Of a DNA stretch of 25,670 nt, positions 5,274-19,711 are shown one piece after another. The stretch spans positions 1 to 25,670 of IMG/VR virus record IMGVR_UViG_3300031839_000090; one strand, 5' to 3'. Position 1 is the first letter of the stretch. The number at the start of each line of letters is the position of its first letter. The translations under genes and the position numbers were made by a program. This DNA is from a virus. The notes below the pieces were generated by a model, which worked only from the letters and a program-made list of their open reading frames with translations, had not been told where the DNA came from and did no database searches.

Positions 5274-5277
5274 GGCT

Positions 5278-5736: not shown

Positions 5737-5757
5737 CTCCTCCTTTACTGGAGAAAG
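5737..5757 (+). promoter_or_regulatory. Pyrimidine tract facing the Shine-Dalgarno sequence
   Basis: CTCCTCCTTT at 5737-5746 is complementary to purine-rich Shine-Dalgarno sequences. CTCC at 5740-5743 can pair with the GGAG at 5750-5753 that serves the ATG at 5761, with a 6-nt loop. Only four base pairs form, so an effect on translation is speculative. Confidence 0.2.
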
Positions 5758-5760
5758 ATA

Positions 5761-6405
5761 ATGGCGAATACAGAAACGTCTTATGGTCTTCGTCCGATAA
5801 GCAGACAGGGTTCTTCTGTTTCTTCTACGGGCATGACCGAGTATCGTATCGCGTCTGACAACTCTAATCCTATTTTTCAAGGCATGGCGGTTATTCCGTT
5901 GGCTGCGGGCGTCATTGACGATCTGCAAGCTGCGGCAGGCGGCAACGTTGCGATTTGTGGGGTTTTTGGCGGATGTGAATACGTCTCAAGCACTACAGGA
6001 AAACCAGTGTTTTCTAACTTTTGGCCCGGATCAGGCGCGGACAGCGACTTTCCGGTCAAAGCCTTCTTGTACGACGATCCCAATCAGTTGTTTCGGATTG
6101 CAACATCTAATGTTGTGGCTGCGGCAAACACTGAAGCAGAGATTCGTGCCGCGGTTTTTGCAAACATTGCGTTTGCAACAGGTAACAGCGGTTCGACTAC
6201 TACTGGGTTGTCTTCAGCCACGGCTGACTTGAACACAATCGCAACCACCAACACTTTGGCTCTCAGAATTATGGGTATCTTAGACGATCCTGCTAATAAT
6301 GACTTCACAAGTGCGGGTATCCCTCTCATTGTTCGTATAAACAACCACTTCAATGCGCCTACAGGCTCTATTGCAGCGGCTACTGTTTCTACGACAGGCG
6401 TATAA
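5761..6405 (+). CDS. Probable capsid decoration / structural protein, 214 aa
   Basis: The protein begins ANTETSYGLRPISRQGSSVSS and is rich in Ala, Gly, Ser, Thr and Asn, with short hydrophobic strands (MAVIPLAAGVIDDL, GGNVAICGVFGGCEYV, PVKAFLYDDP, LALRIMGILDDP, IPLIVRINNH). This is a beta-type virion protein composition. It lies immediately before the major capsid gene, with a good Shine-Dalgarno sequence on each side, which suggests a head decoration or stabilising protein made with the coat. There is no signal peptide. The exact family is not certain. Confidence 0.65.
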   Translation: MANTETSYGLRPISRQGSSVSSTGMTEYRIASDNSNPIFQGMAVIPLAAGVIDDLQAAAGGNVAICGVFGGCEYVSSTTGKPVFSNFWPGSGADSDFPVKAFLYDDPNQLFRIATSNVVAAANTEAEIRAAVFANIAFATGNSGSTTTGLSSATADLNTIATTNTLALRIMGILDDPANNDFTSAGIPLIVRINNHFNAPTGSIAAATVSTTGV

Positions 6406-6417
6406 GGAGCTTAAATT

Positions 6418-7326
6418 ATGGCTATTTCTCGCGCACAACTAGCAAAAGAGCTAGAACCGGGACTAAACGCACTGTTTGGGCTGGAGTATGGACGTTACGA
6501 AAACGAGCATAGTGAAATCTTTGAAGAAGAAAGCTCTGATCGGGCGTTCGAAGAAGAAGTTATGCTCGGAGGGTTTGCAACAGCACCTGTTAAGAGTGAG
6601 GGTGGAGCAATTTCTTTTGATGATGCTCAAGAGACTTACACCGCTCGGTACACTCACGAAACCATTGCGCTTGCGTTCTCTATCACAGAGGAAGCAATCG
6701 AAGACAATCTTTATGATCGTCTGGCTTCGCGTTACACCAAAGCGTTGGCTCGTTCGATGGCTACAACAAAACAGATCAAAGCTGCAGCTATCCTAAACAA
6801 CGCGTTCTCTACTGGTGCTAATGCAATAGGTGACGGCGCAGCATTGTGTTCTTCGGCTCACCCTTCTCTGTCCGGCAACCAAAGAAACTTGCTGTCTACA
6901 GCGGCTGATCTTAACGAGACTTCGTTAGAGCAGATGTTAATTGACATTGCAGGGTTTACGGATGAGCGCGGTTTAAAAATCGCGGTTCGTGGTACGAAGC
7001 TTATTATTCCAAAAGAGCTTCAGTTTATTGCAGAGCGGGTTATGAACTCTAATCTGCGTAGTGGCACTGCGGACAATGACAACAACGCGATTAAGAACAT
7101 GGGCATGTTGCCAGAAGGGGCGTCTGTAAATCACTTCCTTACTGACACAGACGCGTTCTTTATTAAAACTGACGCACCTAACGGCTTTAAGTACTTTAAC
7201 CGTGCTGCAATCAAGACTGCTATGGAAGGCGATTTTGATACGGGCAACATGCGGTTTAAAGCGCGTGAGCGTTACTCGTTTGGTGTATCGGATTGGCGTT
7301 GCGTCTTCGGAACACCCGGAGCGTAA
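6418..7326 (+). CDS. Major capsid protein, HK97-fold
   Basis: This 302-aa protein has features of a phage coat protein: an N-terminal helical arm (AQLAKELEPGLNALFGLEY), an extended E-loop-like segment, YTARYTHETIALAFSITEEAIEDNLYDRL, a long spine-type helix (RYTKALARSMATTKQIKAAAILNNAF), and a C-terminal part with LIIPKELQFIAERVMNS and FKARERYSFGVSDWRCVFG. The ITEEAxxDN...ALARSM...AAxILNxAF pattern is what I associate with the Mu gpT-like / uncultured marine phage coat family. Context (scaffold upstream, terminator right after) supports high-level late expression. AAGGAG precedes the ATG. No protease or propeptide site is evident. Confidence 0.85.
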   Translation: MAISRAQLAKELEPGLNALFGLEYGRYENEHSEIFEEESSDRAFEEEVMLGGFATAPVKSEGGAISFDDAQETYTARYTHETIALAFSITEEAIEDNLYDRLASRYTKALARSMATTKQIKAAAILNNAFSTGANAIGDGAALCSSAHPSLSGNQRNLLSTAADLNETSLEQMLIDIAGFTDERGLKIAVRGTKLIIPKELQFIAERVMNSNLRSGTADNDNNAIKNMGMLPEGASVNHFLTDTDAFFIKTDAPNGFKYFNRAAIKTAMEGDFDTGNMRFKARERYSFGVSDWRCVFGTPGA

Positions 7327-7350
7327 ATTACGCACAATCTTGTGTTTTAA

Positions 7351-7379
7351 GGGGCAGCTTCGGTTGCCCCTTTCTTTTT
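7351..7379 (+). terminator. Rho-independent terminator after the coat gene
   Basis: An 8-bp stem (GGGGCAGC with GUUGCCCC, one G-U pair) closes on a UUCG tetraloop at 7359-7362 and is followed by TTTCTTTTT (7371-7379). This is a textbook intrinsic terminator 24 nt after the major capsid stop. It is the only strong one seen in the window and splits the capsid block from the later structural genes. Confidence 0.9.
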
Positions 7380-7456
7380 GTTTAAATATTGTGTATTCTT
7401 TTGTTATCCCTGACAGCCACAGGATTTGGCTGACTAACCCAAGACAGGAGATTGAC
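7380..7456 (+). promoter_or_regulatory. Leader after the terminator, possible promoter region
   Basis: This AT-rich stretch after the terminator is where a new transcript for the downstream genes should start. A weak sigma70-like pair (TTGTTT at 7378-7383, TGTTAT at 7402-7407, 18-nt spacing) can be drawn, but neither box is close to consensus, so a phage-specific promoter is as likely. A small hairpin (CAGCCA at 7414-7419 with TGGCTG at 7427-7432, 7-nt loop) lies ahead of the ACAGGAG ribosome binding site. Confidence 0.3.
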
Positions 7457-8074
7457 ATGGGTACTACAACATTTAACGGACCAGTTCGGTCTGAAAACGG
7501 CTTTGAAACCGTATCTAAAAATGCGACTACTGGTGCTATTACAATTACCAGTGGTTCGAAAATGGGAACTGAAGCTGCTGGCGGTGCGGGCATTGAAGGA
7601 ACGGCTGCTGTTTACGTTACGCAAGTAGAGCGTTTTAAAAGCGATACCGCAACAAACGTAAACATCGTAAAAACAACTCTTTTGATTGATCTTACTGGTT
7701 TGCGTTCAACTGCGGCGGGTGACATCATTGGTAAAGATGGTTCTGGCGTTGCTTACATTGGTCGCGTTACAACGGCGAATCAAGGTACAGTATTCGGCGT
7801 AACCATGCTGTGCCTTGAAACCCCAGCAGGCGGTGATCCAGATATTAATTTGCATTCTGCTACTGAAGCTACAGGTGTTGAAGATACACCCATTTCTGAT
7901 TTAACTGAGACTTTGATTATTAACTCAGGTGATTTGGCAGCAGGTAGTTTGGTCGCTGGTGGCGATATTGCAGCAGATCAATATCTTTACCTAACTGCGG
8001 GTGCAACAACAGATGCAGATTATACAGCGGGTAGATTACTTATTACAATCACTGGCTATGACGTTGCTTCTTAA
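7457..8074 (+). CDS. Virion structural protein, 205 aa
   Basis: The start ATG at 7457 follows ACAGGAG at good spacing. The frame is open much further upstream (from 7202, through the coat gene and terminator), but that extension is not coding. The protein starts MGTTTFNGPVRSENGFETV and is a Gly/Ala/Thr-rich beta protein (LLIDLTGLRSTAAGDIIGKDG, YIGRVTTANQGTVFGVTMLCLETP, GDIAADQYLYLTAGAT), ending RLLITITGYDVAS. This N-terminus is one I recognise from marine phage and cyanophage virion proteins. It may decorate the head or be a neck protein. It is the first gene of the transcription unit after the terminator. Confidence 0.75.
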   Translation: MGTTTFNGPVRSENGFETVSKNATTGAITITSGSKMGTEAAGGAGIEGTAAVYVTQVERFKSDTATNVNIVKTTLLIDLTGLRSTAAGDIIGKDGSGVAYIGRVTTANQGTVFGVTMLCLETPAGGDPDINLHSATEATGVEDTPISDLTETLIINSGDLAAGSLVAGGDIAADQYLYLTAGATTDADYTAGRLLITITGYDVAS

Positions 8075-8096
8075 CCTAACATAAGGAGTAATTAAT

Positions 8097-8501
8097 ATGG
8101 CAGATGCTGTAACGTCACAGACACTTATCGACGGCGGCAAACAAGTCGTCATGAAATTTACAAACGTTTCGGATGGAACGGGTGAAAGTGCTGTAACCAA
8201 AGTAGATGTTTCTGCGTTAGAAACCAGTGTAGATGGTGACACTTGTACTGGTGTTGTTATTGAGCGCATTTGGTGGCAGTGCATTGGTATGAAAGTCAAG
8301 ATTTTGTTTGACGCAACTACTGACGCGTTTTGCATTGAGCTTGGTGAGAACCAAAGTGGGGATCACGACTACACTGCGTTTGGCGGTTTAACCAACAACG
8401 CGGGTAGTGGAAAGACGGGCGACATTAACTTTACTACGGTAGGTCACACTAGCGCAGATACATATACAATTATCCTGTACATGCGTAAGAAGTATGACTA
8501 A
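8097..8501 (+). CDS. Virion structural protein, 134 aa
   Basis: This beta-rich protein (MADAVTSQTLIDGGKQVVMKFTNVSDGTGES...) has a conserved-looking core, VVIERIWWQCIGMKVKILFD, and a C-terminal strand, YTIILYMRKKYD. It has a strong ATAAGGAG Shine-Dalgarno sequence and similar composition to the product of 7457-8074, so the pair are probably co-expressed virion proteins. The family resembles cyanophage structural proteins of the same size, from memory. No enzyme motifs are present. The last 8 nt overlap the next gene if that gene starts at 8494. Confidence 0.7.
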   Translation: MADAVTSQTLIDGGKQVVMKFTNVSDGTGESAVTKVDVSALETSVDGDTCTGVVIERIWWQCIGMKVKILFDATTDAFCIELGENQSGDHDYTAFGGLTNNAGSGKTGDINFTTVGHTSADTYTIILYMRKKYD

Positions 8502-8772
8502 GGGCAAGATGCCTGCACGAAACAAAAAGAATTTTCGTCCCACTAAATCTGGGGCGGGAATGACGGAAAAAGGTGTAAAAGCCTACAGAGCTAAAAACCC
8601 CGGATCGAAGCTTCAAACGGCGGTTACAGGCAAGGTTAAAGCGGGAAGCAAAGACGCCAAGCGGCGCAAGTCTTTTTGTGCGCGGTCCGCGGGTCAGATG
8701 AAGAAGTTTCCAAAGGCGGCTAAAGACCCTAATAGTCGGTTACGCCAAGCTAGAAAAAGGTGGAAGTGTTGA
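8494..8772 (+). CDS. Very basic conserved phage protein (DUF6321-like)
   Basis: This 92-aa protein has about 30 Lys/Arg against 3 acidic residues. The core KNFRPTKSGAGMTEKGVKAY, KNPGSKLQTAVTGKVKAGSK, KRRKSFCARSAGQMKK matches the small conserved family found in marine myo- and podoviruses that I know as DUF6321 (from memory, unverified). The start could be ATG 8494 (8-nt overlap) or ATG 8509, which has AGGG at 8501-8504. Strong basicity suggests nucleic-acid or procapsid-lattice binding. It is the first of a run of four basic proteins interrupted by one small membrane protein. Confidence 0.8.
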   Translation: MTKGKMPARNKKNFRPTKSGAGMTEKGVKAYRAKNPGSKLQTAVTGKVKAGSKDAKRRKSFCARSAGQMKKFPKAAKDPNSRLRQARKRWKC

Positions 8773-8773
8773 C

Positions 8774-8959
8774 ATGAAGCGCGATGTTTTTTCAGGTTTA
8801 TGTGGCGCAGCTTTTTTAGCTTATTTGGGGTGGATGGGCGTCACACTGTTTGAGTTACACACGCTAACGGCACTTCTTTATGCAGATACTGAGGAACTAC
8901 TTAAAGTTGTTGAGAACAACACAGCTAAAATAAAAGAATTAGCTAAATACTACGATTAA
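8774..8959 (+). CDS. Small single-TM protein, 61 aa
   Basis: After MKRDVF, one hydrophobic segment spans about residues 7-30 (SGLCGAAFLAYLGWMGVTLF), followed by a helical, charged tail (LLKVVENNTAKIKELAKYYD) with heptad-like spacing. It starts 1 nt after the upstream stop. AGGTGGAAG lies at a usable distance. It is a small membrane protein with a cytoplasmic or periplasmic coiled tail. It could be an additional lysis factor or a virion membrane-interaction protein. No family recognised. Confidence 0.55.
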   Translation: MKRDVFSGLCGAAFLAYLGWMGVTLFELHTLTALLYADTEELLKVVENNTAKIKELAKYYD

Positions 8960-8973
8960 AGGGGAAACCGTTA

Positions 8974-9168
8974 ATGGCCTATTCACGTAAGTCCAAAGGT
9001 GCGTCCAAGAAATCTAAGGGTAGCAAGATTTGTCCTGCGGGGAAAGCTTGGGCTCAAAGAACTTTTGATACTTATCCTTCCGCTTATGCAAACATGGCTG
9101 CATCTAAGTATTGCAAGGACCCGAACTATGCCAAGGGAGCCAAGGGTAAGAAGAAGGCGTCAGCGTAA
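8974..9168 (+). CDS. Basic small conserved phage protein (KICPAGKAW type)
   Basis: This 64-aa protein has Lys/Ser-rich ends (SRKSKGASKKSKGSK, AKGAKGKKKASA) around a conserved core, ICPAGKAWAQRTFDTYPSAYANMAASKYCKDPNY. It has two Cys and only two acidic residues. The same core occurs in marine phages and cyanophages next to other small basic proteins (from memory). AAAGGGG lies before the ATG, and the stop overlaps the next ATG. It is probably a DNA-binding or capsid-internal protein (inference from charge and position). Confidence 0.7.
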   Translation: MAYSRKSKGASKKSKGSKICPAGKAWAQRTFDTYPSAYANMAASKYCKDPNYAKGAKGKKKASA

Positions 9169-9566
9169 TGGGTGCTTTAAAAGATTGGGTAAAACAGGAT
9201 TGGGTTAGGATTGGGACCGATGGTAAAATCAAAGGTAAATGTGGTACTTCGAAAGATAAGAAGAACCCTGATCGATGCTTGCCTCGGTCTAAAGCGGCTT
9301 CTCTTTCCCAATCTCAAAGAGCTTCAACGGCTCAGAAGAAAAAACGAGAAGGCTCTAAAGGTAAAACAAACGTTAAAAACACCAAAGCCGCTGAAGTTAA
9401 ACATGCAAGGTTTGGCGGAGAAATATCCAACCAAAAACAATCCCGCAAGAGGCCCGCGCCGAAAAAAATGAGCGACGGAGGGCAGGTTGCACGAGGATGT
9501 GGGATAGTTCTGGCAAAAAATCGTAAAAGAACAAAACTTCCGTACAGAAACTCGGTCATCACATAA
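9168..9566 (+). CDS. Basic two-module protein (DUF5872-like plus RGCG tail)
   Basis: Residues 1-70 (LKDWVKQDWVRIGTDGKIKGKCG, KNPDRCLPRSKAASLSQSQR, KKKREGSKGKTNVKNTK) resemble the DUF5872 family of cyanophages (from memory). Residues about 95-132 form a separate tail, KKMSDGGQVARGCGIVLAKNRKRTK. That tail type (GG-x-x-A-R-G-C-G ... N-R-K-K-T-K) is found as a whole small protein or C-terminal end in other marine phages. The protein therefore looks like a fusion of two small basic families. It is highly Lys/Arg-rich. The start overlaps the previous stop (TAATG). Function is unknown. Nucleic-acid binding is plausible. Confidence 0.7.
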   Translation: MGALKDWVKQDWVRIGTDGKIKGKCGTSKDKKNPDRCLPRSKAASLSQSQRASTAQKKKREGSKGKTNVKNTKAAEVKHARFGGEISNQKQSRKRPAPKKMSDGGQVARGCGIVLAKNRKRTKLPYRNSVIT

Positions 9567-9576
9567 GGAGACTAAC

Positions 9577-9837
9577 ATGGCTGTTAAGAAAAAGAAGAAG
9601 GCAAAAGGTTACGCGGCGGGCGGCAAGGTACGTCGCATGTCTAAAGGCGGAGCGATGGGCGGCAAGATGCCCCGTCGCATGTCTAAAGGCGGAGCGATGG
9701 GCGGCAAGATGCCTCCTAAAATGATGGGCGGGGGTGCTTCTATGACGTTGCCTCAACTTAGAGCGGCAGCAAAACAACGGGGCATGACGCTTTCGCCTAT
9801 GAAGAAAATGGCAAAGGGTGGCAAGGTTAAAAAATAA
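9577..9837 (+). CDS. Gly/Lys/Met repeat protein, 86 aa, no acidic residues
   Basis: The protein has about 25 Lys/Arg and no Asp or Glu. It begins AVKKKKKAKGYAAGGKV, has two copies of RRMSKGGAMGGKMP, a middle helix, TLPQLRAAAKQRGMTLSP, and ends KKMAKGGKVKK. TAAGGAG precedes the ATG. The composition resembles histone-tail-like or protamine-like proteins, so binding of DNA inside the head is a reasonable guess. The short middle helix with LPQLRAAAKQRG looks like a SAP-type or Rho-N-type helix start, but it is too short to call. Confidence 0.65.
   Translation: MAVKKKKKAKGYAAGGKVRRMSKGGAMGGKMPRRMSKGGAMGGKMPPKMMGGGASMTLPQLRAAAKQRGMTLSPMKKMAKGGKVKK
9631..9713 (+). repeat. Perfect tandem direct repeat, 41 nt at 42-nt period
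   Basis: Bases 9631-9671 and 9673-9713 are identical and encode the 14-residue unit RRMSKGGAMGGKMP twice in frame. Identity at all synonymous positions shows a recent duplication by slippage or recombination. Copy number may vary between related phages. Confidence 0.95.
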
Positions 9838-9840
9838 TTC

Positions 9841-10515
9841 ATGGCATATCTGTATTCTAACGTGCCTTATTTTAAGGCGTGGGTGAGGCGTGAGTATACA
9901 CACAATCATCAGAAGTATCATGGCGAGTTTTTACACGCTATGGTGATAGGCGTCACAACGTTGCCAAATAGATGCTTGAGCTTTCAAGTTATGTTTACGG
10001 GCAGTGCTGCGGAAGGGGAGGACGAGGACGAAGTTCATGGTGGTGCCATGTGGGCAAGAATGCCTATAACGGCATTAGTTGGAGATATACCTTTGGAGGA
10101 ATGGCCTGAACCTATGGAGACTTATGCCGCGCAGCCTTGGGACTGTGCGTCTCATCATCATTCGGTTTTTGTTATGGATAGAACCACGCCTTGTCCTTGG
10201 CTGGCAAAAATAAATGGCGAAATGTACCCAGCTAAATATTTGTTTACGGTAGATTATACGGAAAGCGAGATAGCGGATGATCCTGCGCAGCATAAGCAGA
10301 GTCATGTTTTGCAGCTTTTAGAAGCGGGTAGTTGGACAGGAAACATAGTGGCCTTACCAAACAACCGCGTTAGAGTTACGCATCCCGCGTGGTTTGTTAC
10401 AGGTGAGGGGCCCCCTGACTTCAAACCTTCTCAGCATGTACATTACTCTAAATCTGATTTAGACTACACCTTAGACGTTAATCGAATATTCGATAATCTG
10501 TACAACGAGGAATGA
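9841..10515 (+). CDS. Conserved unknown protein, 224 aa
   Basis: This soluble protein starts AYLYSNVPYFKAWVRREYTH and is rich in Trp, His and Pro. A block around residues 58-70 is acidic (AAEGEDEDEVHGGAMWARMP). Other stretches include CASHHHSVFVMD, CPWLAKINGEMYPAKYLFTVDY and VTHPAWFVTGEGPPDFKP. Scattered His/Cys could bind metal, but no known motif is clear. I associate similar proteins with structural regions of uncultured marine phages, with no assigned function. It lies between the basic-protein island and the first adaptor, separated from each by 1-3 nt, so it is part of the late structural operon. Confidence 0.7.
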   Translation: MAYLYSNVPYFKAWVRREYTHNHQKYHGEFLHAMVIGVTTLPNRCLSFQVMFTGSAAEGEDEDEVHGGAMWARMPITALVGDIPLEEWPEPMETYAAQPWDCASHHHSVFVMDRTTPCPWLAKINGEMYPAKYLFTVDYTESEIADDPAQHKQSHVLQLLEAGSWTGNIVALPNNRVRVTHPAWFVTGEGPPDFKPSQHVHYSKSDLDYTLDVNRIFDNLYNEE

Positions 10516-10516
10516 C

Positions 10517-11185
10517 ATGGCGGTTTCAAACAGCGTAGATTTCGAACTGGATGTAGATGAATACATTGAGGAAGCTTTTGAGCGTTGCGGCTTAGAGGTG
10601 AAGACAGGTTATGATTTAAAGACAGCAAAGCGTTCTTTGAATCTTATGTTGGCTGATTGGGCAAACCGTGGATTAAACCAGTGGACGATTGCACAACGCA
10701 CTGAAACGATGGTTGAGGGAACAGGAGCATACGCTCTTAGTACGGATATTATTGATATTTTGTCCGTGGTTGTTCAACGTGACGGAACGGACTACTCTTT
10801 GTCTAGGTTAAGCCGAGAGGAGTATTTAAACATACCCAACAAGGCCACCAAAGGTCGTCCTAATCAATTTTTTCTAGATCGACAAATTATACCTAGTTTA
10901 AAAATTTGGCCCACGCCGGAAAACAGTACAGACGTTGTGTATTATAATGCACTTACGCGCATGGATGATGCGGACACATATATTAACACTTTAGACATGC
11001 CTTTTAGGTTTTACCCCTGTTTAGCCGCGGGTTTGGCTTATTATATCTCGGTAAAACGAGCCCCGCAGCGCGTACAACTATTGAAAGCCATGTATGAGGA
11101 AGAGTTTGAACGTGCAATGACGGAAGACCGTGATAGAGCTTCGTTTAACGTGGTGCCGCAGTATCAGTACTATAGGACGGGTTGA
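10517..11185 (+). CDS. Head-tail adaptor (P22 gp4-like)
   Basis: This 222-aa protein has VDEYIEEAFERCGLE and LKTAKRSLNLMLADWANRGLNQW at the N-terminus, a beta middle with YALSTDIIDILSV, the PNQFFLDRQ...LKIWPTPENSTDVVYYNALTRM segment, and a C-terminal helix, FRFYPCLAAGLAYYISVKRAPQRVQLLKAMYEEEFERAMTEDRDR. This is the pattern of the adaptor proteins that bind under the portal ring in P22/SU10-like short-tailed phages. It would connect the portal to the tail hub. The stop overlaps the next ATG by one base (TGATG). The assignment is from remembered family pattern and gene order. Confidence 0.78.
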   Translation: MAVSNSVDFELDVDEYIEEAFERCGLEVKTGYDLKTAKRSLNLMLADWANRGLNQWTIAQRTETMVEGTGAYALSTDIIDILSVVVQRDGTDYSLSRLSREEYLNIPNKATKGRPNQFFLDRQIIPSLKIWPTPENSTDVVYYNALTRMDDADTYINTLDMPFRFYPCLAAGLAYYISVKRAPQRVQLLKAMYEEEFERAMTEDRDRASFNVVPQYQYYRTG

Positions 11186-11541
11186 TGACCAAGTTTGCAA
11201 GTGGAAAAAACGCTTTTGCAATTTCTGACCGTTCTGGTTTTCGGTATCGGTATAAGGATATGCGAAAAGAATGGAACGGTTTGTTGGTTGGTAGGGATGA
11301 GTGGGAAGCCAAACAGCCTCAGCTAGGTCCTTTTAGAGAGGTTTCTGATCCGCAGGCTTTGCAGGATGCACGTCCTCAGTTTCCTGATACGAACACGCCG
11401 TTTATGGTTAAAACTACTAACGGAATTACTTATTTAGGAAACGGGAACTGGGCTACGTCAGGAACCGCGGAACTTCCAACGGAAATAAACAATACTGTAG
11501 CTTTAGAGGGCTCAGTAGGTGAGGTCACGGTGACAACATGA
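11185..11541 (+). CDS. Small structural protein with VTVTT C-terminus, 118 aa
   Basis: I use the ATG at 11185, which shares a base with the previous stop, rather than the in-frame TTG at 11182. The N-terminal part, DRSGFRYRYKDMRKEWNGLLVGRDEWEAKQPQL, resembles a conserved segment beside adaptors in marine phages. The C-terminal part is beta-like and ends GSVGEVTVTT. The 103-aa product at 19711-20022 ends GSVGSVTVTT, so the two share a C-terminal signature. It probably belongs to the neck or tail. The function is unknown. The stop overlaps the next start. Confidence 0.65.
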   Translation: MTKFASGKNAFAISDRSGFRYRYKDMRKEWNGLLVGRDEWEAKQPQLGPFREVSDPQALQDARPQFPDTNTPFMVKTTNGITYLGNGNWATSGTAELPTEINNTVALEGSVGEVTVTT

Positions 11542-12395
11542 GCTACACATACACAGCACTTAAAACAGCCATACAAGATTACACGGAAAACGACGAAACA
11601 ACGTTTGTTAAAACCCTGCCTATTTTTATTAAAAATACAGAAGAGCGTATTTTAAAAAATGTACAGTTAAGCTTGTTTCAAAAGAATGTTTCTGGAACTC
11701 TAACTTCCAGCAATAAGTTTTTAAACTGCCCCAGTGATTTTTTAGCTCCGTTTTCTTTATCCTTTACTAATAGTAGTACTCAACAGATATTCTTAGATTT
11801 TAAAAACTCGGACTTTGTTCAATCGTTTACCCCGAATGCTGCGGTTACGGGACCGCCTCGGTATTACGCGCAATACGATTTACAAAACTTTATTATAGCG
11901 CCTACACCGGACAGTGGGTACGCGGTGGAGCTTCACTATTTCTATCGTCCGTTGAGTTTAACGCAAAGCGCTTTTACGTTAACGTTAACCAGTGTTGTAG
12001 GTACTTTTACCGCGGCGGATACGATTACTGGATCAACTAGCGGTCAATCTAGCGGAGTTAACGCTGTACCGTCTTCCACAACGCTGACTGTTGTAATTCC
12101 AAGCGGCGACTATGTTGTTGGAGAAACGATTACGGGAAGTGACACGGGTGCTACCGCGGTAATCTCAGCTATTGGAGCGGATACAACTGTTTCGTGGCTC
12201 AGTGACAACGCCGAAATTGCCATGTTGTACGGCTCGTTGATGGAAGCCTACATTTTTATGAAGGGTGAGCAGGATATGGAAGCGTTATATGAGAAGCGGT
12301 TTGGAGAGGCTATTATGGGACTGAAGATGCTGGGAGAAGCCAAAGAAGTTACCGATGAATACCGTACTGGACCTGTAGTGAGGCCAAAACAATGA
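11538..12395 (+). CDS. Phage adaptor protein with duplicated beta insert, 285 aa
   Basis: The N-terminal (YTALKTAIQDYTENDETTFV, FIKNTEERILKNVQL) and C-terminal (WLSDNAEIAMLYGSLMEAYIFMKGEQDMEALYEKRFGEAI) helices match the adaptor family seen in marine podoviruses. PPRYYAQYDLQNFIIAPTPDSGYAVELHYFYRP is the central strand block. Between them, residues 147-216 are an insert made of two 35-residue repeats (TLTLTS...TITGSTSGQ and TLTVVI...TITGSDTGA). The start overlaps the previous stop (ATGA). It is a likely second head-tail connector, with the insert projecting outward (inference). Confidence 0.75.
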   Translation: MSYTYTALKTAIQDYTENDETTFVKTLPIFIKNTEERILKNVQLSLFQKNVSGTLTSSNKFLNCPSDFLAPFSLSFTNSSTQQIFLDFKNSDFVQSFTPNAAVTGPPRYYAQYDLQNFIIAPTPDSGYAVELHYFYRPLSLTQSAFTLTLTSVVGTFTAADTITGSTSGQSSGVNAVPSSTTLTVVIPSGDYVVGETITGSDTGATAVISAIGADTTVSWLSDNAEIAMLYGSLMEAYIFMKGEQDMEALYEKRFGEAIMGLKMLGEAKEVTDEYRTGPVVRPKQ

Positions 12396-12691
12396 ACAAT
12401 ATGTCTTTTGGCGTGTCCATGTCTAACGATTTTAAGGTTGGTGTTGAGACTACGAATAACCGAGGCTTTACGCCGGAAGAAACTGCGTTGCGTTGCGTAA
12501 ACAAGATAATTGGTGTTTCCGACAACGCTCCTCCTGCCATACGGGATCAGGCCCGTGCATATCGCTCCGAGATGGAGAAGATAATTTCGGTGTATATGAA
12601 ACAGGCTATCCAAAGTGACCGTACTACGGTATACAATGCAATAAAGGATTCTGGTCAGCCCGAGTTGGCCGAATATATAAGGAAAATGTAG
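12392..12691 (+). CDS. Small helical conserved structural-region protein, 99 aa
   Basis: After a short N-terminal strand region (SFGVSMSNDFKVGVETTNNRG), the protein is helical: FTPEETALRCVNKIIGVSDNAPPAIRDQARAYRSEMEKIISVYMKQAI, then TVYNAIKDSGQPELAEYIRKM. I recall the GFTPEE...RCVNKI...SDxAPPAIRDQA pattern as common in marine phage structural clusters, without known function. It overlaps the adaptor by 4 nt (ATGA) and abuts the next gene. It could be a tail assembly chaperone or connector component. Confidence 0.7.
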   Translation: MNNMSFGVSMSNDFKVGVETTNNRGFTPEETALRCVNKIIGVSDNAPPAIRDQARAYRSEMEKIISVYMKQAIQSDRTTVYNAIKDSGQPELAEYIRKM

Positions 12692-13126
12692 ATGGCTTTC
12701 AGTGGCAACTTTCTATGCACGTCGTTCAAAGTAGAACTAATGAAGGGCGTACATAACTTTACGGCAGCAAGTGACCAATTTAAACTGGCCTTGTATGATA
12801 ACAGCGCCAGTTTCACCGCGGCAACAACTGCGTACACTTCTAGTAACGAGATTACTGGTACGAATTACACAGCGAAGGGCAACTTTCTTACCAGTGTAAC
12901 ACCTACGTCCAGTAGTACAACGGCGTTTACAGATTTTGCTGACGAGGTGTTTTCTACGGTAACCATTTCGGGAGTGCGGGGCGCGTTAATCTTTAACGAG
13001 GCGGCATCCGGTGATCCGACAGTTTGTGTACTAGATTTTGGCGCGGATAAGGCGGCTAGTTCTGGCGACTTTACGATTGTATTCCCCACGGCTAATGCCT
13101 CTAACGCGATTATTCGGATAGCCTAA
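12692..13126 (+). CDS. Conserved beta structural protein, 144 aa
   Basis: It starts AFSGNFLCTSFKVELMKGVHNF and continues as a beta-rich, Thr/Ser/Ala-rich chain (DQFKLALYDNSASF, YTSSNEITGTNYT, GVRGALIFNEAASGDPTVCVLDFGADKAASSGDFTIVFP). This arrangement (a protein describing a 'phage tail/virion' beta-sandwich of about 145 residues) recurs in marine phage genomes (from memory). It follows directly on the previous stop, and its own stop overlaps the next ATG. It is probably a tail or fibre-attachment component. There are no catalytic motifs. Confidence 0.7.
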   Translation: MAFSGNFLCTSFKVELMKGVHNFTAASDQFKLALYDNSASFTAATTAYTSSNEITGTNYTAKGNFLTSVTPTSSSTTAFTDFADEVFSTVTISGVRGALIFNEAASGDPTVCVLDFGADKAASSGDFTIVFPTANASNAIIRIA

Positions 13127-13605
13127 TGGCTGATCCGGTTGCAGCCTTTCAGGGGTGGAATAGCTCCATACAAGGATGGAACACGGGTACTTGGAATACC
13201 AACGTTGCCTTTCCATTAACTGCGACCGCTTCTGTTAACAGTCAGACTGTTAACGTCTCGGGAGACGCCTTTGGGTTTGTGGGTTCCTTAGTTGGAACGG
13301 CAGCAGTTGGCTCTGTAACGGTGGTTGGTGAGGCCAACGTTTCTGTAACGGGAGTTGCGGGCACCTCGGCGTTAGGCAGCTTTTTTACAACAAACACAGA
13401 AGTTCAAATGACTTCTGCCATAGGCACTACAACCATTGTAGGAGCCGCAAACGTTGAGGTTACTGGGGTTAGTGCTACGGGTCAAATAGGCAAATTAAGG
13501 TCTGCTTGGAGTAACATAATTCCCTCTCAAACGTCTAACTTTACAAATATCACGGTTGCTCAAACACCGGATTGGGTTGAGATTGAGCATGGCCGCGCAG
13601 CATAG
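13126..13605 (+). CDS. Beta-repeat structural protein with GWNxGTW motif, 159 aa
   Basis: The N-terminus carries a Trp repeat, FQGWNSSIQGWNTGTWN (residues 8-24). The body has two copies of a unit ending in VVGEANVSVTGVAGTSALG and IVGAANVEVTGVSATGQIG, with a related AAVGSVTVVG before them. The protein is almost free of charged residues, as in repetitive fibre or decoration proteins. The C-terminus (FTNITVAQTPDWVEIEHGRAA) looks like a folded end. It sits just before the tail fibre, so a fibre-base or tail surface role is likely. The Trp motif recurs in the hub protein encoded at 17600-19711. Confidence 0.68.
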   Translation: MADPVAAFQGWNSSIQGWNTGTWNTNVAFPLTATASVNSQTVNVSGDAFGFVGSLVGTAAVGSVTVVGEANVSVTGVAGTSALGSFFTTNTEVQMTSAIGTTTIVGAANVEVTGVSATGQIGKLRSAWSNIIPSQTSNFTNITVAQTPDWVEIEHGRAA

Positions 13606-13614
13606 GATAACAAC

Positions 13615-15960
13615 ATGGCAAGCGTATATACAAACGATCTTCGTTTAGAAGAAATCGGCTCCGGAGAACAATCGGGTACTTGGGGCGATACAACTAACAC
13701 CAATTTAGAACTTATTGCTGAAGCGTTTGCTTTTGGCACTGAGGCTATTACGACTAACGCGGACACACACGCCACTACGATTGCGGACGGTGCGACTGAT
13801 CCGGGTCGCGCTCTGTTTTTAAAGTACACGGGTACTTTAGACAGCGCCTGCACCATTACTCTTGGTCCTAACACGGTTAGCAAGCTGTGGTTTATTGAGA
13901 ACGGAACCTCTGGTTCGCAGAACATTATCATATCTCAAGGGTCTGGGGCTAACATTACAATCCCACCGGGCGATACTAAAGCCATCTATTCAGATGGCGC
14001 AGGCTCTGGCGCGGCAATGGTTGACGCCTTTGCCTCTTTGTCTGTTGTTGACCTCAAGGTTCAAGACGATCTGACGGTTACTGGTACTACTACTCTTACT
14101 GGCGACTTGCTACTTGGTGACAACGACAAGGCCATCTTTGGCGCTGGGTCTGACCTACAGATTTACCATGATGGGTCGCATAGCTATGTTTCTGACCAAG
14201 GCACTGGAAACATTAAGTACAGAGCCGCTTCTCGACATCAGTTTGAAAATGCAGATGGTTCAAAGATGTATATTCAGCTTGTTGGTGATACGGTTGGTCA
14301 AGAGTATGTTCAACTTCGTTATAACAACAGCACCAAACTCGCCACCACCAACACAGGTATTGACGTAACAGGCACTGTCACGGCTGATGGACTGACTGTG
14401 GATGGTGCTGTTGTATTCAATGAGGCATCCGCTGATGTAGACTTTCGTGTTGAATCAAATGGCAACGCTAATATGCTGTTTGTTGATGGTGGTGAAAACA
14501 GGATCGGTATAGGGACAAATGCGCCTGCAACTGATGTACACATTCAAAAATCATCAGCTACTGCGATATTAAGGTTGCATAGAACTGGCGCAACTAATGC
14601 CGCAAACGCAGCTTTAGGGCAGCTTGAGTTTTTTAATGCAGATGGCACTGGTGATGGTCCAAATGTTACTTCTAAAATTGTGGGTAGTACGTTTACCAGC
14701 ACAGGAGCAGGCGGTAATTTAGAATTTTATACGCATGATAGCTCAGAGTCAGGTGGTGAAGGTTCTGATCCAGTTCAGAGGGTTAAGATAGATGGAAACG
14801 GAAATGTCGGGATTGGCACGAGTTCGCCTACTTCGCCTTTGCATTTATATGGCTCAAGTAATCAGTTGATTACCGTCGAAAGCACAGATGCTAATGCAAA
14901 CATTGCGTTCAAGGACAATTCGACAACAAACGTTGCGCAGGTCGGAGTTAAAACAGATGACATGTTCTTTGCTACTGGCGGCTCAGAAGCCATGCGCATC
15001 GACAGCAGTGGAAATCTGTTGGTGGGTAATACTTCTACTGGATTAACTTCTGACGGTGTTAATTTACATGGCGATGGAACCTTAGAAGTACGCAGAAATT
15101 TATCTACCGCTAACAGTTCAACAGTTGGCTTTATATCCAGAGGTTCATCGGACGGAAACATACTTCAGTTTTACAAAGATACAACTCATGTGGGGAGTAT
15201 TGGGGTTCGCTCTGGAACTGACCCTTATTTTGTTTCACCCGAAGGTTCTGGAACTGGATTAAAGATGGAGGGCGGGCTAAATGCTGTTGTTCCTATTTCA
15301 ACGAATGGTGAAGATAGAGATAACGTAGTAGACTTGGGTAAATCAACAGGCCGCTTCGACGACATCTATGCCACCAACGGCACAATCCAAACATCTGACC
15401 GCAACGAGAAGCAAGACATTGCAAGCCTAACTTCAGCCGAAATGCTGGTGGCTAAACGTATCTCAGCATTGTTTAAGACCTTCCGTTGGAAAGACAAAGT
15501 CGCAGCCAAGGGTAATGATGCAAGAACTCATACAGGTATCATAGCCCAAGACGTACAAGCTGCATTTACTGCTGAAGGTTTAGACGCTGGTGACTACTCA
15601 CTGTTTATCTCAAGCACTTGGTGGGAGCATGATGTTGAGGTTCCTGCTGTTGAAGCTGTTGCTGAAGTAACTGAAGATGTTGTTATTGCAGCAGTTCAAG
15701 AAGAGTTAGACGAAGAAGGTAATGTCTTAGTTGAGGCTCAAGAAGAACGCACAGAGCAGAGAGTAATAACAGAAGCCGTTGAAGCCGTTGATGCTTACAC
15801 TCGCACAGATACCTACGACACACTTGATGAAGCACCAGAGGGTGCAACTAGCAAGACTAGGATGGGCATTAGATACCCTGAGTTGTTGTCATTCGTAGCA
15901 GCATATAACGAGCAGCGGTTTGCAGCTATTGAGACACGCCTCACGGCATTGGAAGGATAA
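13615..15960 (+). CDS. Tail fibre with C-terminal S74 auto-cleaving chaperone
   Basis: This 781-aa protein has an N-terminal virion-binding part (ASVYTNDLRLEEIGSGEQSGTWGDT), a strand-rich shaft, LQIYHDGSHSYVSDQGTGNI near residue 181, and fibre repeats IGIGTNAPATDVHIQ (about 297) and VGIGTSSPTSPLHLYG (about 398). The S74 domain begins at TSDRNEKQDI. Ser594 is the likely nucleophile and Lys599 lies in the S-D-x-x-x-K motif, with HTGIIAQDVQAAF following. S74 domains trimerise the fibre and then cut themselves off before the Ser. An acidic insert (VEVPAVEAVAEVTEDVV...) splits the chaperone before the terminal helix, YNEQRFAAIETRLTALEG. It would act in host recognition. Confidence 0.9.
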   Translation: MASVYTNDLRLEEIGSGEQSGTWGDTTNTNLELIAEAFAFGTEAITTNADTHATTIADGATDPGRALFLKYTGTLDSACTITLGPNTVSKLWFIENGTSGSQNIIISQGSGANITIPPGDTKAIYSDGAGSGAAMVDAFASLSVVDLKVQDDLTVTGTTTLTGDLLLGDNDKAIFGAGSDLQIYHDGSHSYVSDQGTGNIKYRAASRHQFENADGSKMYIQLVGDTVGQEYVQLRYNNSTKLATTNTGIDVTGTVTADGLTVDGAVVFNEASADVDFRVESNGNANMLFVDGGENRIGIGTNAPATDVHIQKSSATAILRLHRTGATNAANAALGQLEFFNADGTGDGPNVTSKIVGSTFTSTGAGGNLEFYTHDSSESGGEGSDPVQRVKIDGNGNVGIGTSSPTSPLHLYGSSNQLITVESTDANANIAFKDNSTTNVAQVGVKTDDMFFATGGSEAMRIDSSGNLLVGNTSTGLTSDGVNLHGDGTLEVRRNLSTANSSTVGFISRGSSDGNILQFYKDTTHVGSIGVRSGTDPYFVSPEGSGTGLKMEGGLNAVVPISTNGEDRDNVVDLGKSTGRFDDIYATNGTIQTSDRNEKQDIASLTSAEMLVAKRISALFKTFRWKDKVAAKGNDARTHTGIIAQDVQAAFTAEGLDAGDYSLFISSTWWEHDVEVPAVEAVAEVTEDVVIAAVQEELDEEGNVLVEAQEERTEQRVITEAVEAVDAYTRTDTYDTLDEAPEGATSKTRMGIRYPELLSFVAAYNEQRFAAIETRLTALEG
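15922..15954 (+). repeat. Imperfect direct repeat, copy 1 (fibre C-terminus)
   Basis: This 33-nt segment encodes AAIETRLTALE at the end of the S74 fibre. It matches 17290-17322 at 27 of 33 positions, in the same orientation. The two copies bracket the C1q-fibre gene and the 91-aa gene. Confidence 0.75.
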
Positions 15961-15966
15961 TCACAC

Positions 15967-16920
15967 ATGACTAGAGCAAGAGATTTAGCCGCTGGTACTT
16001 TTGAACTAGCCACAGGCGGTGTACTTAAACTAGAGACATCAGACACCACCGTTACAGATGGTAGTGTGCTGGGCAAGATTGAGTTCAAAGCACCTGATGA
16101 AGCTAGTGGCACTGATGCTATACTGGTAGGTGCAGCCATTGAAGCTGTAGCTGAAGGTACATTTGCTGCTGATAATAATGCTACTGAGCTTGTGTTTAAA
16201 ACAGGTGCTAGTGCGGCTGCTGATGCTAAGATGGTAATAAGTAGCAGCGGAGCTGTTGGTATTAAAACGACTACTCCTGCTACCAATGGTCAGTTTTCAG
16301 TCCGGGGGGCTATTGCAACAACTAGTTATGGAAATGTAAGTGGTGACTTTTCTGATGCGTCAACTGGGTCTTTAAAAATTTCACACGCTTCTGGAGTAGT
16401 AAAATTAATTACAGATCAGACCCTTTCTTTGGTAACTGGCACAAGTGTAGTGGCTATGGGCATTGACTCCACAGGTGAAGTCACCAAGCCATTACAGCCA
16501 GCGTTTCATGTAGTTAAAAATGCAAATCAAAACAATATCGCTACAAGCACAGGCGTTACTGTGCTGTGGCAAGTTGAATCCTATGACGTGGGTGGAAACT
16601 TTGCTTCTAATACTTTTACTGCACCTGTGGCTGGAAAATATATTTTAACCGCTTCTATAAGAGTAGACAGTTTAGATACTACTGCTTCATTGCATAATGA
16701 TATGGCGATCGTAACTTCAAACAGAACCTACAAGAATATTTTTGACCTTCGGGGGTTAAGTGCTGACTCTACTTATTGGACTTTTACAATAAATGCGGTA
16801 GCCGATATGGATGCAGGTGATACTGCTTTTGTCACATTCTTTCAAAATGGCGGCAATGCACAATCGGATATAAAAAATGACAGTACGAGAACATACTTTT
16901 CTGGCATCTTGGTCGGATAA
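15967..16920 (+). CDS. Secondary fibre protein with C1q-like C-terminal domain
   Basis: The first about 175 residues are fibre-like (TRARDLAAGTFELATGGVLKLETSDTT, DAKMVISSSGAVGIKTTTPATNG), with the same V-G-I-x-T-x-x-P repeat as the main fibre. Residues about 177-317 (PAFHVVKNANQNN, FTAPVAGKYILTASIRVD, YWTFTINAVADMDAGDTAFVTFFQNG, TRTYFSGILVG) follow the order of the C1q/TNF-like jelly-roll domain common in phage fibres, including the F-T-A-P-x-x-G-x-Y signature. That domain trimerises and can bind receptors. It lies 6 nt after the main fibre. Codon choice is unlike the hub gene downstream (fewer GCG/ACG). Confidence 0.82.
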   Translation: MTRARDLAAGTFELATGGVLKLETSDTTVTDGSVLGKIEFKAPDEASGTDAILVGAAIEAVAEGTFAADNNATELVFKTGASAAADAKMVISSSGAVGIKTTTPATNGQFSVRGAIATTSYGNVSGDFSDASTGSLKISHASGVVKLITDQTLSLVTGTSVVAMGIDSTGEVTKPLQPAFHVVKNANQNNIATSTGVTVLWQVESYDVGGNFASNTFTAPVAGKYILTASIRVDSLDTTASLHNDMAIVTSNRTYKNIFDLRGLSADSTYWTFTINAVADMDAGDTAFVTFFQNGGNAQSDIKNDSTRTYFSGILVG

Positions 16921-16960
16921 CCAACGGGCGGAATAACCCTGTCTTAAAGGAGACATAATA

Positions 16961-17236
16961 ATGGCAACAATAACACTAACAGTAGACGTAACGGACACAG
17001 AGCAAGCTATCTTGCTGAACGATCTGTTAAACATAGACGATTGGCTTCAGGCTGCAATGGATGGCAAGAAAGCTAACTGCTGGAAACGTATGCAGCAAGA
17101 GTGGACTACCAAGCTGATGAACGATGAGAGCTTCACTGATAGCATCCCGTCTAACCAAGCAGCATTCGTAGCACTGGTGACTGCACGGGAAGACTACGTG
17201 ACACGCACAGAACGTGACGCAGCAAGCAGCATTTAA
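16961..17236 (+). CDS. Small conserved protein in the fibre module, 91 aa
   Basis: The protein is helical: TITLTVDVTDTEQAILLNDLLNIDDWLQAAMDGKKANCWKRMQQEWTTKLMND, then SFTDSIPSNQAAFVALVTAREDY. An AAAGGAG site precedes the ATG. Proteins with the TDxEQxxLxxDLLDIxxW...AxxGKxxxCxxR pattern occur beside tail fibres in marine phages, as I recall, with no proven role. They may be fibre assembly chaperones. The stop overlaps the small reading frame at 17236. Confidence 0.7.
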   Translation: MATITLTVDVTDTEQAILLNDLLNIDDWLQAAMDGKKANCWKRMQQEWTTKLMNDESFTDSIPSNQAAFVALVTAREDYVTRTERDAASSI

Positions 17237-17331
17237 TGGATATTAACTGGACAGTAGTAACAATCGTAGGTGCATTACTAGCCCAAGGTGCTGCTATTGA
17301 GACGCGCCTGACCGCACTAGAAAACGCATGA
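17236..17331 (+). CDS. 31-aa membrane/heptad peptide, possible fibre-end remnant
   Basis: The start ATG shares a base with the previous stop (TAATG), and the frame reads MDINWTVVTIVGALLAQGAA followed by IETRLTALENA. The first part is hydrophobic. The last 11 residues match the extreme C-terminus of the tail fibre (FAAIETRLTALEG). At DNA level 17290-17322 agrees with 15922-15954 at 27 of 33 positions. It may be a genuine micro-protein or a scar left by recombination at fibre ends. Confidence 0.45.
   Translation: MDINWTVVTIVGALLAQGAAIETRLTALENA
17290..17322 (+). repeat. Imperfect direct repeat, copy 2 (31-aa reading frame)
   Basis: This is the second copy of the heptad-coding segment, inside the reading frame 17236-17331. 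Differences from copy 1 are mostly at third codon positions, which suggests selection on the encoded heptad or divergence after an older exchange. Confidence 0.75.
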
Positions 17332-17355
17332 CCCCAACCCCGAAAGGAGATCACA

Positions 17356-17586
17356 ATGGCTGAGAAAAAAACAAACACCATTACGATCAACGGAACTGAC
17401 TACACTGAAGACCAACTAAATGACACCCAGAAGGTAATGGTGAACCACGTTGCTGACTTAGACAGAAAGATTGGCTCTGCTAATTTTAACATTGACCAGC
17501 TAAAAATGGGGCGCATGGCGTTTATGCAATCTTTGACGGCATCGTTGGCAACTGATACAGAAGAAGAAACGGCGAATGTAAACTAG
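17356..17586 (+). CDS. Small conserved phage protein (DUF6447-like), 76 aa
   Basis: It begins NTITINGTDYTEDQLNDTQK and continues with a helical hairpin (VNHVADLDRKIGSANFNIDQLKMGRMAFMQSL), ending in an acidic tail. The TITIxGxxYxxxxLxxxxK start followed by a heptad helix resembles the DUF6447 family found beside tail fibres of marine phages (from memory, unverified). CGAAAGGAG gives a strong ribosome binding site. It is probably a small fibre-module or assembly protein. Function is not known. Confidence 0.7.
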   Translation: MAEKKTNTITINGTDYTEDQLNDTQKVMVNHVADLDRKIGSANFNIDQLKMGRMAFMQSLTASLATDTEEETANVN

Positions 17587-17599
17587 GTGGAGTAAATGA

Positions 17600-19711
17600 A
17601 TGCCCCTGACCAAGCTCCAGTTCAAGCCCGGAATAAACCGAGAAACCACCTCTTACAGTAACGAGGGCGGTTGGTTTGATGTGGATAAGGTTAGGTTTCG
17701 TTTTGGGTTCCCTGAGAAAATAGGAGGTTGGTCTAAGTACTCTAGTACAGCCTTCTTAGGAACATGCCGCGCATTGCACCCGTGGTCCGCGTTAGACGGC
17801 ACAAGTTTTATCGGAGTTGGAACGCACCTAAAGTATTACATACTAGAGGGAACGCAGTACTACGACATCACCCCAATTCGTTTAACAACGAGCGCGGGTG
17901 ATGCCACCTTTGCTACGGGCGCGGACACTCTTAACGGAGCTATAGACGCCACTACGGAGACTATTGTAATAGACTCCGCCACTGGGTTTCCTGCTTCGGG
18001 TCGTATTCAGATAGGTTCTGAAGAAATAACCTACGCCTCTATTTCCAGCGTTACTTTGTTGGGTTGCGCTAGGGGCCAAAACGGTACGACTGCCGCGTCT
18101 CATGCGGATGGGGCCGCGGTTGGTTGCTGCACCATTACTGTAACGGAAAACGAACACGGCGCTTTAGCTGATGATTTTGTAACCTTTACGGATGCTGCTA
18201 CGTTAGGTGGCGTAATAACCGCTGCAGTTCTTAATCAAGAGTACCAGATCACTTCTATTGTAAGTGCTAATGCCTATCAGATTGAAGCGCGTACAATTTC
18301 TACCATTCCGTCAATTACAACCACGGAGGGTTTAAACCCTACCTTCGTGTTTGCTAATACTTCTGATAGTGGTAGTGGCGGTAGTTCTACGGTAGCTGCG
18401 TATCAAATCAACACGGGCCTAGATACCACTATTGTTGGCAACGGCTGGAACGCGGGTACTTGGGGCCGCGGCACGTGGAACTCGTCTACGGACACCAGCG
18501 CCTCGGGTCAGATGCTTCGAATTTGGAGCCACGATAACTTTGGCGAGGACCTCTTGCTTAACGATAGGGATGGAAACATCTACTATTGGGATAGGACTAA
18601 CGGTACAGGCGTCAGGGCGGTAGCTTTATCCACTCTTTCGGGGGCAAGCAGTCCACCAACCAAGGCTAAGATAGTTTTGGTTTCTGACAACGACCGCCAT
18701 GTTGTCGTGTTTGGAACTAACGCTGAAAACAGTACGGACCAAGACCCGTTGTTAATTCGATTTGGCAGTCAGGCAAGTCTTACGGGTTGGGCTGCGGCGG
18801 CTACGAATACTGCGGGCGACCTTAGAATAGGTTCTGGTTCTGAGATTGTGGCTGCGATAGAAACAAAACAACAGATTATGGTATTTACGGATGTTTCGTT
18901 ACACGCGATGCAGTTTCTAGGACCGCCGTTTACCTTTGGTATTAACATGGTATCGGACAACATAACCATTATGGGTCCGTTGGCCGCGATTAACGTAGAA
19001 GACAACGTGTTTTGGATGGGTCAGGAAGAGTTTTACACTTATTCTGGCGCGGTGCAGCGCATACCTTGTACGGTACGTGATTACGTCTTTTCGGACTTTA
19101 ACTTCTTTCAAAAGGAGAAGGTCACAGCCTCTTCAAACACTGCTTTTGGGGAGATTTGGTGGTTTTATCCTTCTTCAAGTAGTTCTGAAAACGACCGATA
19201 TGTAGTGTTTAATTACCAGCAAAACCTTTGGTATTACGGCACAATGGACCGCACTGTATGGCTAGATCGTGGTATAAACGCTGATCCGATTGCAGCGGCA
19301 CCGGATCATTACCTGTATAACCATGAAATAGGGTTTGATGACGGCAGTACGGACCCTGCGACGGCTATTTCTGCGCGGATTGAAAGCAGTCAGATAGATA
19401 TGGGTGACGGGGACCACTTTTTGTTTATGAGCAAGATGATACCTGATTTAACGTTTAGGGACTCAACGGCCTCTCTTCCATCCGCCACTATGACCTTACA
19501 GGCGCGTAATTATCCGGGCGGATTATACCTTCAAACGCAGGCAAAGGCGGTTACTCGGACGGCTACGGTGCCTTTGGAGCAGTGGACAAATCAGGTTAAT
19601 TTACGCCTTCGTGGCAGGGCCTTTTCGTTAAAGTTGGAATCTACGGACACAGGAGTTGGATGGCGACTAGGAACGCCGCGGGTTGATATAAGACCAGACG
19701 GGAGAAGGTAG
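17600..19711 (+). CDS. Tail hub / stabilisation protein (P22 gp10-like)
   Basis: This 703-aa protein starts PLTKLQFKPGINRETTSYSNEGGWFDVDKVRFRFGFPEKIGGW. Beta-propeller-type repeats follow (ALHPWSALDGTSFIGVGTHLKYYIL, LLLNDRDGNIYYWDR, VVVFGTNAENSTDQDPLLIRF, WMGQEEFYTYSGAVQRIPCTVRDYVFSDFN). This is the pattern of podovirus tail hub proteins such as P22 gp10. An insert at about 115-170 (TIVIDSATGFPASGRIQIGSEEITY...CARGQNGTTAASH) is a module common in phage structural proteins. A Trp repeat, GWNAGTWGRGTW, lies at 282-293. The start ATG at 17600 has GGAG 7 nt upstream. It plugs the adaptor and carries the tail appendages. Confidence 0.8.
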   Translation: MPLTKLQFKPGINRETTSYSNEGGWFDVDKVRFRFGFPEKIGGWSKYSSTAFLGTCRALHPWSALDGTSFIGVGTHLKYYILEGTQYYDITPIRLTTSAGDATFATGADTLNGAIDATTETIVIDSATGFPASGRIQIGSEEITYASISSVTLLGCARGQNGTTAASHADGAAVGCCTITVTENEHGALADDFVTFTDAATLGGVITAAVLNQEYQITSIVSANAYQIEARTISTIPSITTTEGLNPTFVFANTSDSGSGGSSTVAAYQINTGLDTTIVGNGWNAGTWGRGTWNSSTDTSASGQMLRIWSHDNFGEDLLLNDRDGNIYYWDRTNGTGVRAVALSTLSGASSPPTKAKIVLVSDNDRHVVVFGTNAENSTDQDPLLIRFGSQASLTGWAAAATNTAGDLRIGSGSEIVAAIETKQQIMVFTDVSLHAMQFLGPPFTFGINMVSDNITIMGPLAAINVEDNVFWMGQEEFYTYSGAVQRIPCTVRDYVFSDFNFFQKEKVTASSNTAFGEIWWFYPSSSSSENDRYVVFNYQQNLWYYGTMDRTVWLDRGINADPIAAAPDHYLYNHEIGFDDGSTDPATAISARIESSQIDMGDGDHFLFMSKMIPDLTFRDSTASLPSATMTLQARNYPGGLYLQTQAKAVTRTATVPLEQWTNQVNLRLRGRAFSLKLESTDTGVGWRLGTPRVDIRPDGRR

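Follow-up and report, generated by a model that had tools for sequence, protein, structure and literature searches.

A frame of 31 codons at 17236-17331 of the window (the whole stretch of viral DNA analysed here, 25,670 nucleotides, positions 1-25,670 of the IMG/VR record IMGVR_UViG_3300031839_000090) begins with a hydrophobic stretch and ends like the 781-aa S74 tail-fibre gene upstream of it. How did so short a frame arise? A preliminary description had seen in it either a recombination footprint, left by the swapping of fibre modules through short homology at fibre ends, or a micro-protein that co-trimerises with the fibre stalk. We conclude that a tail-fibre cassette has very probably been swapped in horizontally and that the frame is its right-hand junction, at which the start of a membrane-protein gene, termed TM84, meets the last codons of a former resident fibre gene. 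The features concerned are:

17236..17331, + strand: chimeric 31-codon frame, TM84 start joined to fibre end; protein MDINWTVVTIVGALLAQGAAIETRLTALENA
17234..17299, + strand: TM84 5' end (putative donor side), 66/66 bases identical to L133
17294..17299, + strand: CTATTG, probable crossover point common to both parents, from the three-way register L133 / window / L253
17294..17331, + strand: apparent remnant of the S74 fibre gene formerly resident here (3' end with its stop), without a difference from the last bases of the 758-codon fibre frame in L253
13615..15960, + strand: 781-aa S74 tail-fibre gene (Pfam Peptidase_S74, E 1.4e-11; PHROG tail fibre)
15922-15954, + strand: repeat copy 1, the last codons of the fibre gene, inside the 781-aa S74 gene

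The end of the frame derives from a second fibre gene

The repeat noticed in the preliminary description is real: 27 of 33 bases agree between 17290-17322 and the fibre end at 15922-15954. The second-best real match to the 33-mer within the window reaches 20/33, and when the window was simulated 100 times with a first-order Markov model, the best match on either strand never exceeded 22/33. As also described, the two copies bracket the C1q-type fibre gene and the 91-aa gene. All six differences between them are synonymous (GCA/GCT, ACA/ACG, CTC/CTG, ACG/ACC, TTG/CTA), as expected if both fibre ends derive from working fibre genes. Over its initial 10 bases (17290-17299) the repeat is also TM84-family sequence, and it is purely fibre-derived only from 17300 on. 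A simple duplication of the window's own fibre end was considered and rejected, since the second copy equals the L253 fibre end exactly and the own end at only 27 of 33 positions.

To the right of the frame lie two further features:

17331..17375, + strand: constant right flank with leader, ribosome-binding site and the first codons of the 76-aa gene; 45/45 bases in 25 of the 30 best rows
17356..17586, + strand: 76-aa gene (PHROG 21153), the first gene right of the cassette

Over 17294-17375 the window is identical to contig L253 at 82/82 bases. L253 is a phage of the window's own lineage, and its S74 fibre frame of 758 codons has the lineage-type start and ends in ...NEQRFASIETRLTALENA (IETRLTALENA and the stop) directly before the 76-aa gene. 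Because this frame ends at the same site, we take the second fibre end of the window to be a leftover of the previous resident fibre. L253 was among four contigs recovered in an IMG/VR scan for the fibre end plus leader; such scans may miss records that belong to the window's own genome or are very close to it. A degenerate fibre-end pattern returned no match, as it required an alanine before IETRL where L253 has a serine. The 37-mer 17294-17330 occurs in no other examined locus except L082, which is a copy of the window.

The 76-aa gene has 94 IMG/VR relatives, of which 80 were kept. The genes upstream of the 45-base flank vary between these loci; a fibre with an S74-like coiled end stands upstream of the 76-aa gene in five of the 80 (L138, L168, L180, L203 and L208), and a TM84 stub precedes it in 0 of 80 loci other than the window. 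Moreover, the 76-aa gene follows fibre-region genes in roseophages CRP-1, 7, 212, 235, 345, 901 and 902. The 45 bases of 17331-17375 are identical even though the 76-aa proteins of these loci differ by up to about 30%, and this conservation would seem to exceed what coding alone needs.

The start of the frame derives from TM84

The hydrophobic start belongs not to a fibre but to the 5' end of a separate gene family, TM84, which is intact at 84 codons in contig L133. The protein, usually of 84 and sometimes of 81 aa, reads MDINWTVVTIVGALLAQGAAIVW...HENDVMIARIDANVEAIKEALNVV and combines one N-terminal hydrophobic span with a long, probably helical tail. An IMG/VR scan for the codons of WTVVTIVG gave 52 stretches. 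Sorting yielded 55 locus rows which, as two contigs appear twice, represent 53 contigs including the window; 48 rows (46 contigs) hold an intact gene, four hold stubs (the window, L093, L101 and L105) and three are cut by contig ends. Among the 30 best rows, similarity to the window ends exactly at 17299 in 25 TM84 loci; set apart from these is the stub locus L093, where it ends at 17287. Intact TM84 directly follows fibre, fibre-assembly or other cassette genes, and a gene for a MIDPxTAF protein comes next wherever the locus extends far enough. The piece in the window covers about 21 of the 84 codons and lacks the full-length frame with the helical tail HENDxxIARIDANVxAIK, and no second TM84 piece was found in the window. 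When bacterial genomes were scanned with the TM84 pattern, none of the 22 matches was TM84.

Synonymous change is 0.109 in TM84 codons 1-10, as compared to 0.24-0.35 in later blocks, which could reflect exchange or a constraint on the start of the gene. TM84 adjoins fibre genes, for example at L133:5997-6248. Roseophages CRP-403, CRP-113 and CRP-361 have distant homologues (34-43%), with fibre/assembly genes on one side and DNA maturase A on the other. The class II holin gene 17.5 of T7 occupies this position, and a holin role of TM84 may be suggested. The MIDPxTAF gene adjoins the fibre cassette in TM84 phages, unlike in the window, where the corresponding MIDPVTAF protein (1469-1948; 159 aa, hydrophobic C-terminus) is encoded about 12 kb upstream of the cassette, without TM84.

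The two sides come from different phage groups

The capsid protein of the window is 73% identical to that of phage DSL-LC04, 72% to that of Pelagibacter phage HTVC023P and 60% to those of Roseobacter phages CRP-901 and CRP-902. The TM84 contig L225, in contrast, encodes a capsid protein 81% identical to that of CRP-9 (HMO-2011 type). Seven probe proteins from the TM84 contigs L224-L228 had no match in the window or in L253; the exception among TM84-contig genes is MIDPxTAF, with its homologue at window position 1469. Capsid types and unmatched probes together indicate that donor and resident sides are different phage groups. A capsid search of 19 contigs gave no match, these contigs being fragments or other phages. 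Genes right of TM84 are common to L243 and the contigs of L224, L226 and L228 (30-63% identity), from which L243 itself would be placed in the donor group; its 1220-aa protein is just 24-26% identical to cultured roseophage proteins.

A six-base crossover

Identity to L133 stops at 17299 and identity to L253 starts at 17294, and hence the two parents overlap by six bases, CTATTG. They agree at 8 of 10 bases over 17290-17299, and a blind join sharing at least six bases has a p of about 0.0013 with equal base frequencies. A single open 31-codon frame results because both parents happen to have the same codon phase at CTATTG. Thus, the footprint of a fibre-module swap proposed in the preliminary description holds, as both parents of the junction are found, whereas the proposed short homology between two fibre ends does not, the crossover being of TM84 with a fibre end.

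The parental sequences, the breakpoint, the gene order in both parent types and the recurrence of TM84 stubs reported below are all visible at sequence level; from them we propose the following course of events. The resident would have been an L253-like phage of the CRP-901/HTVC023P-type lineage, with its S74 fibre directly before the 76-aa gene, and the donor a phage with fibre genes followed by TM84, the two having presumably met in one co-infected cell. The incoming cassette would have carried the first ~21 codons of TM84 and taken the place of the resident fibre except for its last codons. A crossover over CTATTG, through microhomology or a phage annealase, would then have led from TM84 codons 20-22 into the resident fibre at a point about 11 codons ahead of its stop. 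Products would have survived only if the final gene of the cassette and the leader upstream of the 76-aa gene were both retained, and the resulting peptide would probably have no function. RecET acts on 5-13 bases, as cited in PMC2327257, and phage annealing enzymes can thus use matches as short as CTATTG. With a sharp breakpoint between two parents, little homology and distinct parental genomes, the locus would, as far as sequences tell, qualify as a mosaic junction formed by short-homology recombination.

The cassette is a patchwork

Further features of the cassette are:

13615..14081, + strand: lineage-constant 5' part of the fibre gene, with the left edge of the cassette at 14081, by DNA identity to relatives
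15967..16920, + strand: C1q-type fibre gene, itself mosaic (Pfam C1q, E 1e-3, under the curated cut-off)
16961..17236, + strand: 91-aa gene, common in marine phage fibre cassettes, with no confident Pfam or PHROG family

The 5' part of the fibre gene is 84-85% identical to L134/L218, L142/L221 and L136/L220 and 83% to L149, and all these similarities, like that to L253, end at 14081. L244, a member of the window's lineage with 72% for the capsid and 96% for the fibre N-terminus, resembles the window in pieces over 4935-14081 and then at 17331-17564; a single match of 62 bases lies in between. Within the cassette, L243 matches the window at 91% identity over 15306-16233 and L230 at 89% over 16477-17224. 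L243 also carries TM84, matching 17236-17299 at 98.4% over 64 bases on the same contig. The 91-aa gene has 169 relatives in IMG/VR; 80 were kept and 79 of these loci were readable. Across relatives it precedes many different genes. A tblastn search with the 91-aa protein found no match in 50,697 phage records at E 1e-3.

Several observations weigh against the reading as a cassette-swap junction. Patches from different relatives, L243-like and then L230-like over 15306-17224, imply more than one exchange, and 14082-15305 has no single source. In 0 of the 79 readable loci does the 91-aa gene stand directly before TM84 (an NWT frame within 80 bases past the stop was sought), and the TM84 piece therefore has a second junction on its left, at 17233/17234, matched by none of these loci. 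The junction itself is known from one contig, which constitutes the whole record of 25,670 bases and is possibly partial; a scan for the junction returned four stretches, all unrelated.

TM84 stubs recur at other cassette ends

Of the 39 stretches found in a second scan for TM84 starts, seven were new; they comprise three intact genes, the stubs of L249 and L251 and two unrelated sequences. A scan with the promoter-like flank of L093 and L105 gave ten contigs, with a stub in L093, L105, L249, L251, L279 and L282 and the same flank without a TM84 stub in L278, L280, L281 and L283. This is a third type of right flank, in which TTGCTT, 15 bases and TATAAT directly follow the last cassette gene or TM84 stub (L105:3420-3460; also L093, L249, L251 and L278-L283). 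Altogether at least eight contigs including the window carry stubs, at five distinct junctions (four junctions in the seven other contigs), a tally limited to stubs detectable by the patterns chosen.

In L093 the TM84 stub measures 52 bases and continues, out of frame, into the 3' end of a fibre-assembly gene of resident type. The flank that follows is that of L278, L280 and L283, and assembly-gene end and flank together are 88.5% identical to these three. L105, L279 and L282 have a common 13-codon stub behind different cassette genes, and one stub junction is common to L249 and L251, which are from different metagenome records. The stubs of L105 and L249 stop after 13 codons, and elsewhere the stubs show no open-frame pattern like that of the window. 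A search with the sequence beyond the stub in L101 returned no match. Since the TM84 5' end occurs in backgrounds with different right flanks, and the stub is kept by phages without the gene, this end (about 20-66 bases) may tentatively be regarded as a common landing sequence, that is, a recurrent exchange border for fibre cassettes. If so, otherwise unrelated marine phages would have one landing sequence for swapping receptor-binding modules.

Alternative explanations

The frame might instead be a gene for a functional micro-protein: a membrane peptide of 31 aa with a single span and a fibre-like heptad, whose translation is coupled to that of the 91-aa gene and which acts with the fibre. 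Its ATG and the 91-aa gene's stop codon do overlap in TAATG, an arrangement that is kept with the frame open, and its first 20 residues are hydrophobic enough to span a membrane. However, the complete frame is missing from 79/79 readable loci of the 91-aa gene and 80/80 of the 76-aa gene, and its halves match two unrelated genes to the base. L230 retains the C1q C-terminus (86%), the 91-aa gene (90%) and the 76-aa gene (74%) and has a 111-aa gene in place of the 31-codon frame, the outcome in a relative that the preliminary description had named as a refutation. Stubs elsewhere run out of frame into the assembly gene (L093) or end after 13 codons (L105 and L249). The 31-aa protein has no Pfam or PHROG match, and tblastn against cultured phages gave none either. 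Absence from relatives together with the exact two-parent origin led us to reject the micro-protein, co-trimerising or otherwise, as highly improbable. A switchable cassette, invertible or site-specific with the repeat as crossover site, would account for the direct repeat that flanks the block of C1q fibre and 91-aa gene on either side. Yet 13500-17700 holds a single weak inverted repeat (76% over 21 nt) with both arms in the first fibre gene, and the second repeat copy is fully accounted for as an old fibre end. An invertible cassette was rejected, as 13500-17700 shows no inverted crossover sites around this segment, and we give a switch of either kind practically no chance.

An assembly or amplification chimera of two phages at 17294-17299 would explain why the join is present in one contig only, but analogous stubs occur in seven other contigs, and the L249/L251 junction was obtained twice. 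Moreover, assembler overlaps, set by k-mer lengths, are far longer than six bases, which also counts against a chimera; we consider it very unlikely. Decay in place is similarly improbable. Here, an ancestral TM84 would have stood between cassette and S74 fibre, and the 3' part of TM84 would have been lost by deletion together with the bulk of the fibre. For this a single event within a single genome suffices, and some contigs do have several fibre genes. However, no locus was seen in which a fibre gene follows intact TM84; the next gene, where in the locus, is MIDPxTAF. The window has no other TM84 piece, and its MIDPxTAF homologue at 1469 is far from the cassette. We therefore retain the swapped-cassette junction.

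Comparison with known systems

Because breakpoints are difficult to locate, fibre-gene swaps between marine phage groups with little common DNA are usually deduced by comparing genes. In the window the breakpoint is fixed to six bases with both parental sequences known, and scraps of the donor gene at other cassette ends make swapping countable. For annotation, short open frames at cassette ends may be scars.

What we describe is ordinary mosaicism, unusually well resolved. Whether mosaic phage genomes arise by illegitimate or by short-homology recombination, followed by selection, is debated in PMC2327257 and PMC3945230. As in the genomes treated there, the parent changes abruptly at gene edges, essential genes are intact on both sides and gene scraps lie between. 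Three things set the window apart from mosaic genomes generally: both parental sequences are known exactly, the breakpoint is internal to two genes, and the donor-gene scrap recurs at other cassette ends. Tail-fibre genes have also been exchanged between the unrelated phages P2, P1, lambda and T4 (works cited in PMC3945230), where, as here, receptor-binding ends and assembly genes move between phage groups as a block; unlike in those phages, no strong inverted repeat or invertase-type site is seen at the window cassette (13500-17700). A further likeness is the recombination of modules among HMO-2011-type, Cobavirus and CRP-9/13 phages, likewise an exchange between distinct marine roseophage groups, and the capsid of L225 is of the HMO-2011/CRP-9 type. 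In that case recombination boundaries were hard to identify, according to PMC8528129, whereas one boundary of the fibre exchange in the window is exact.

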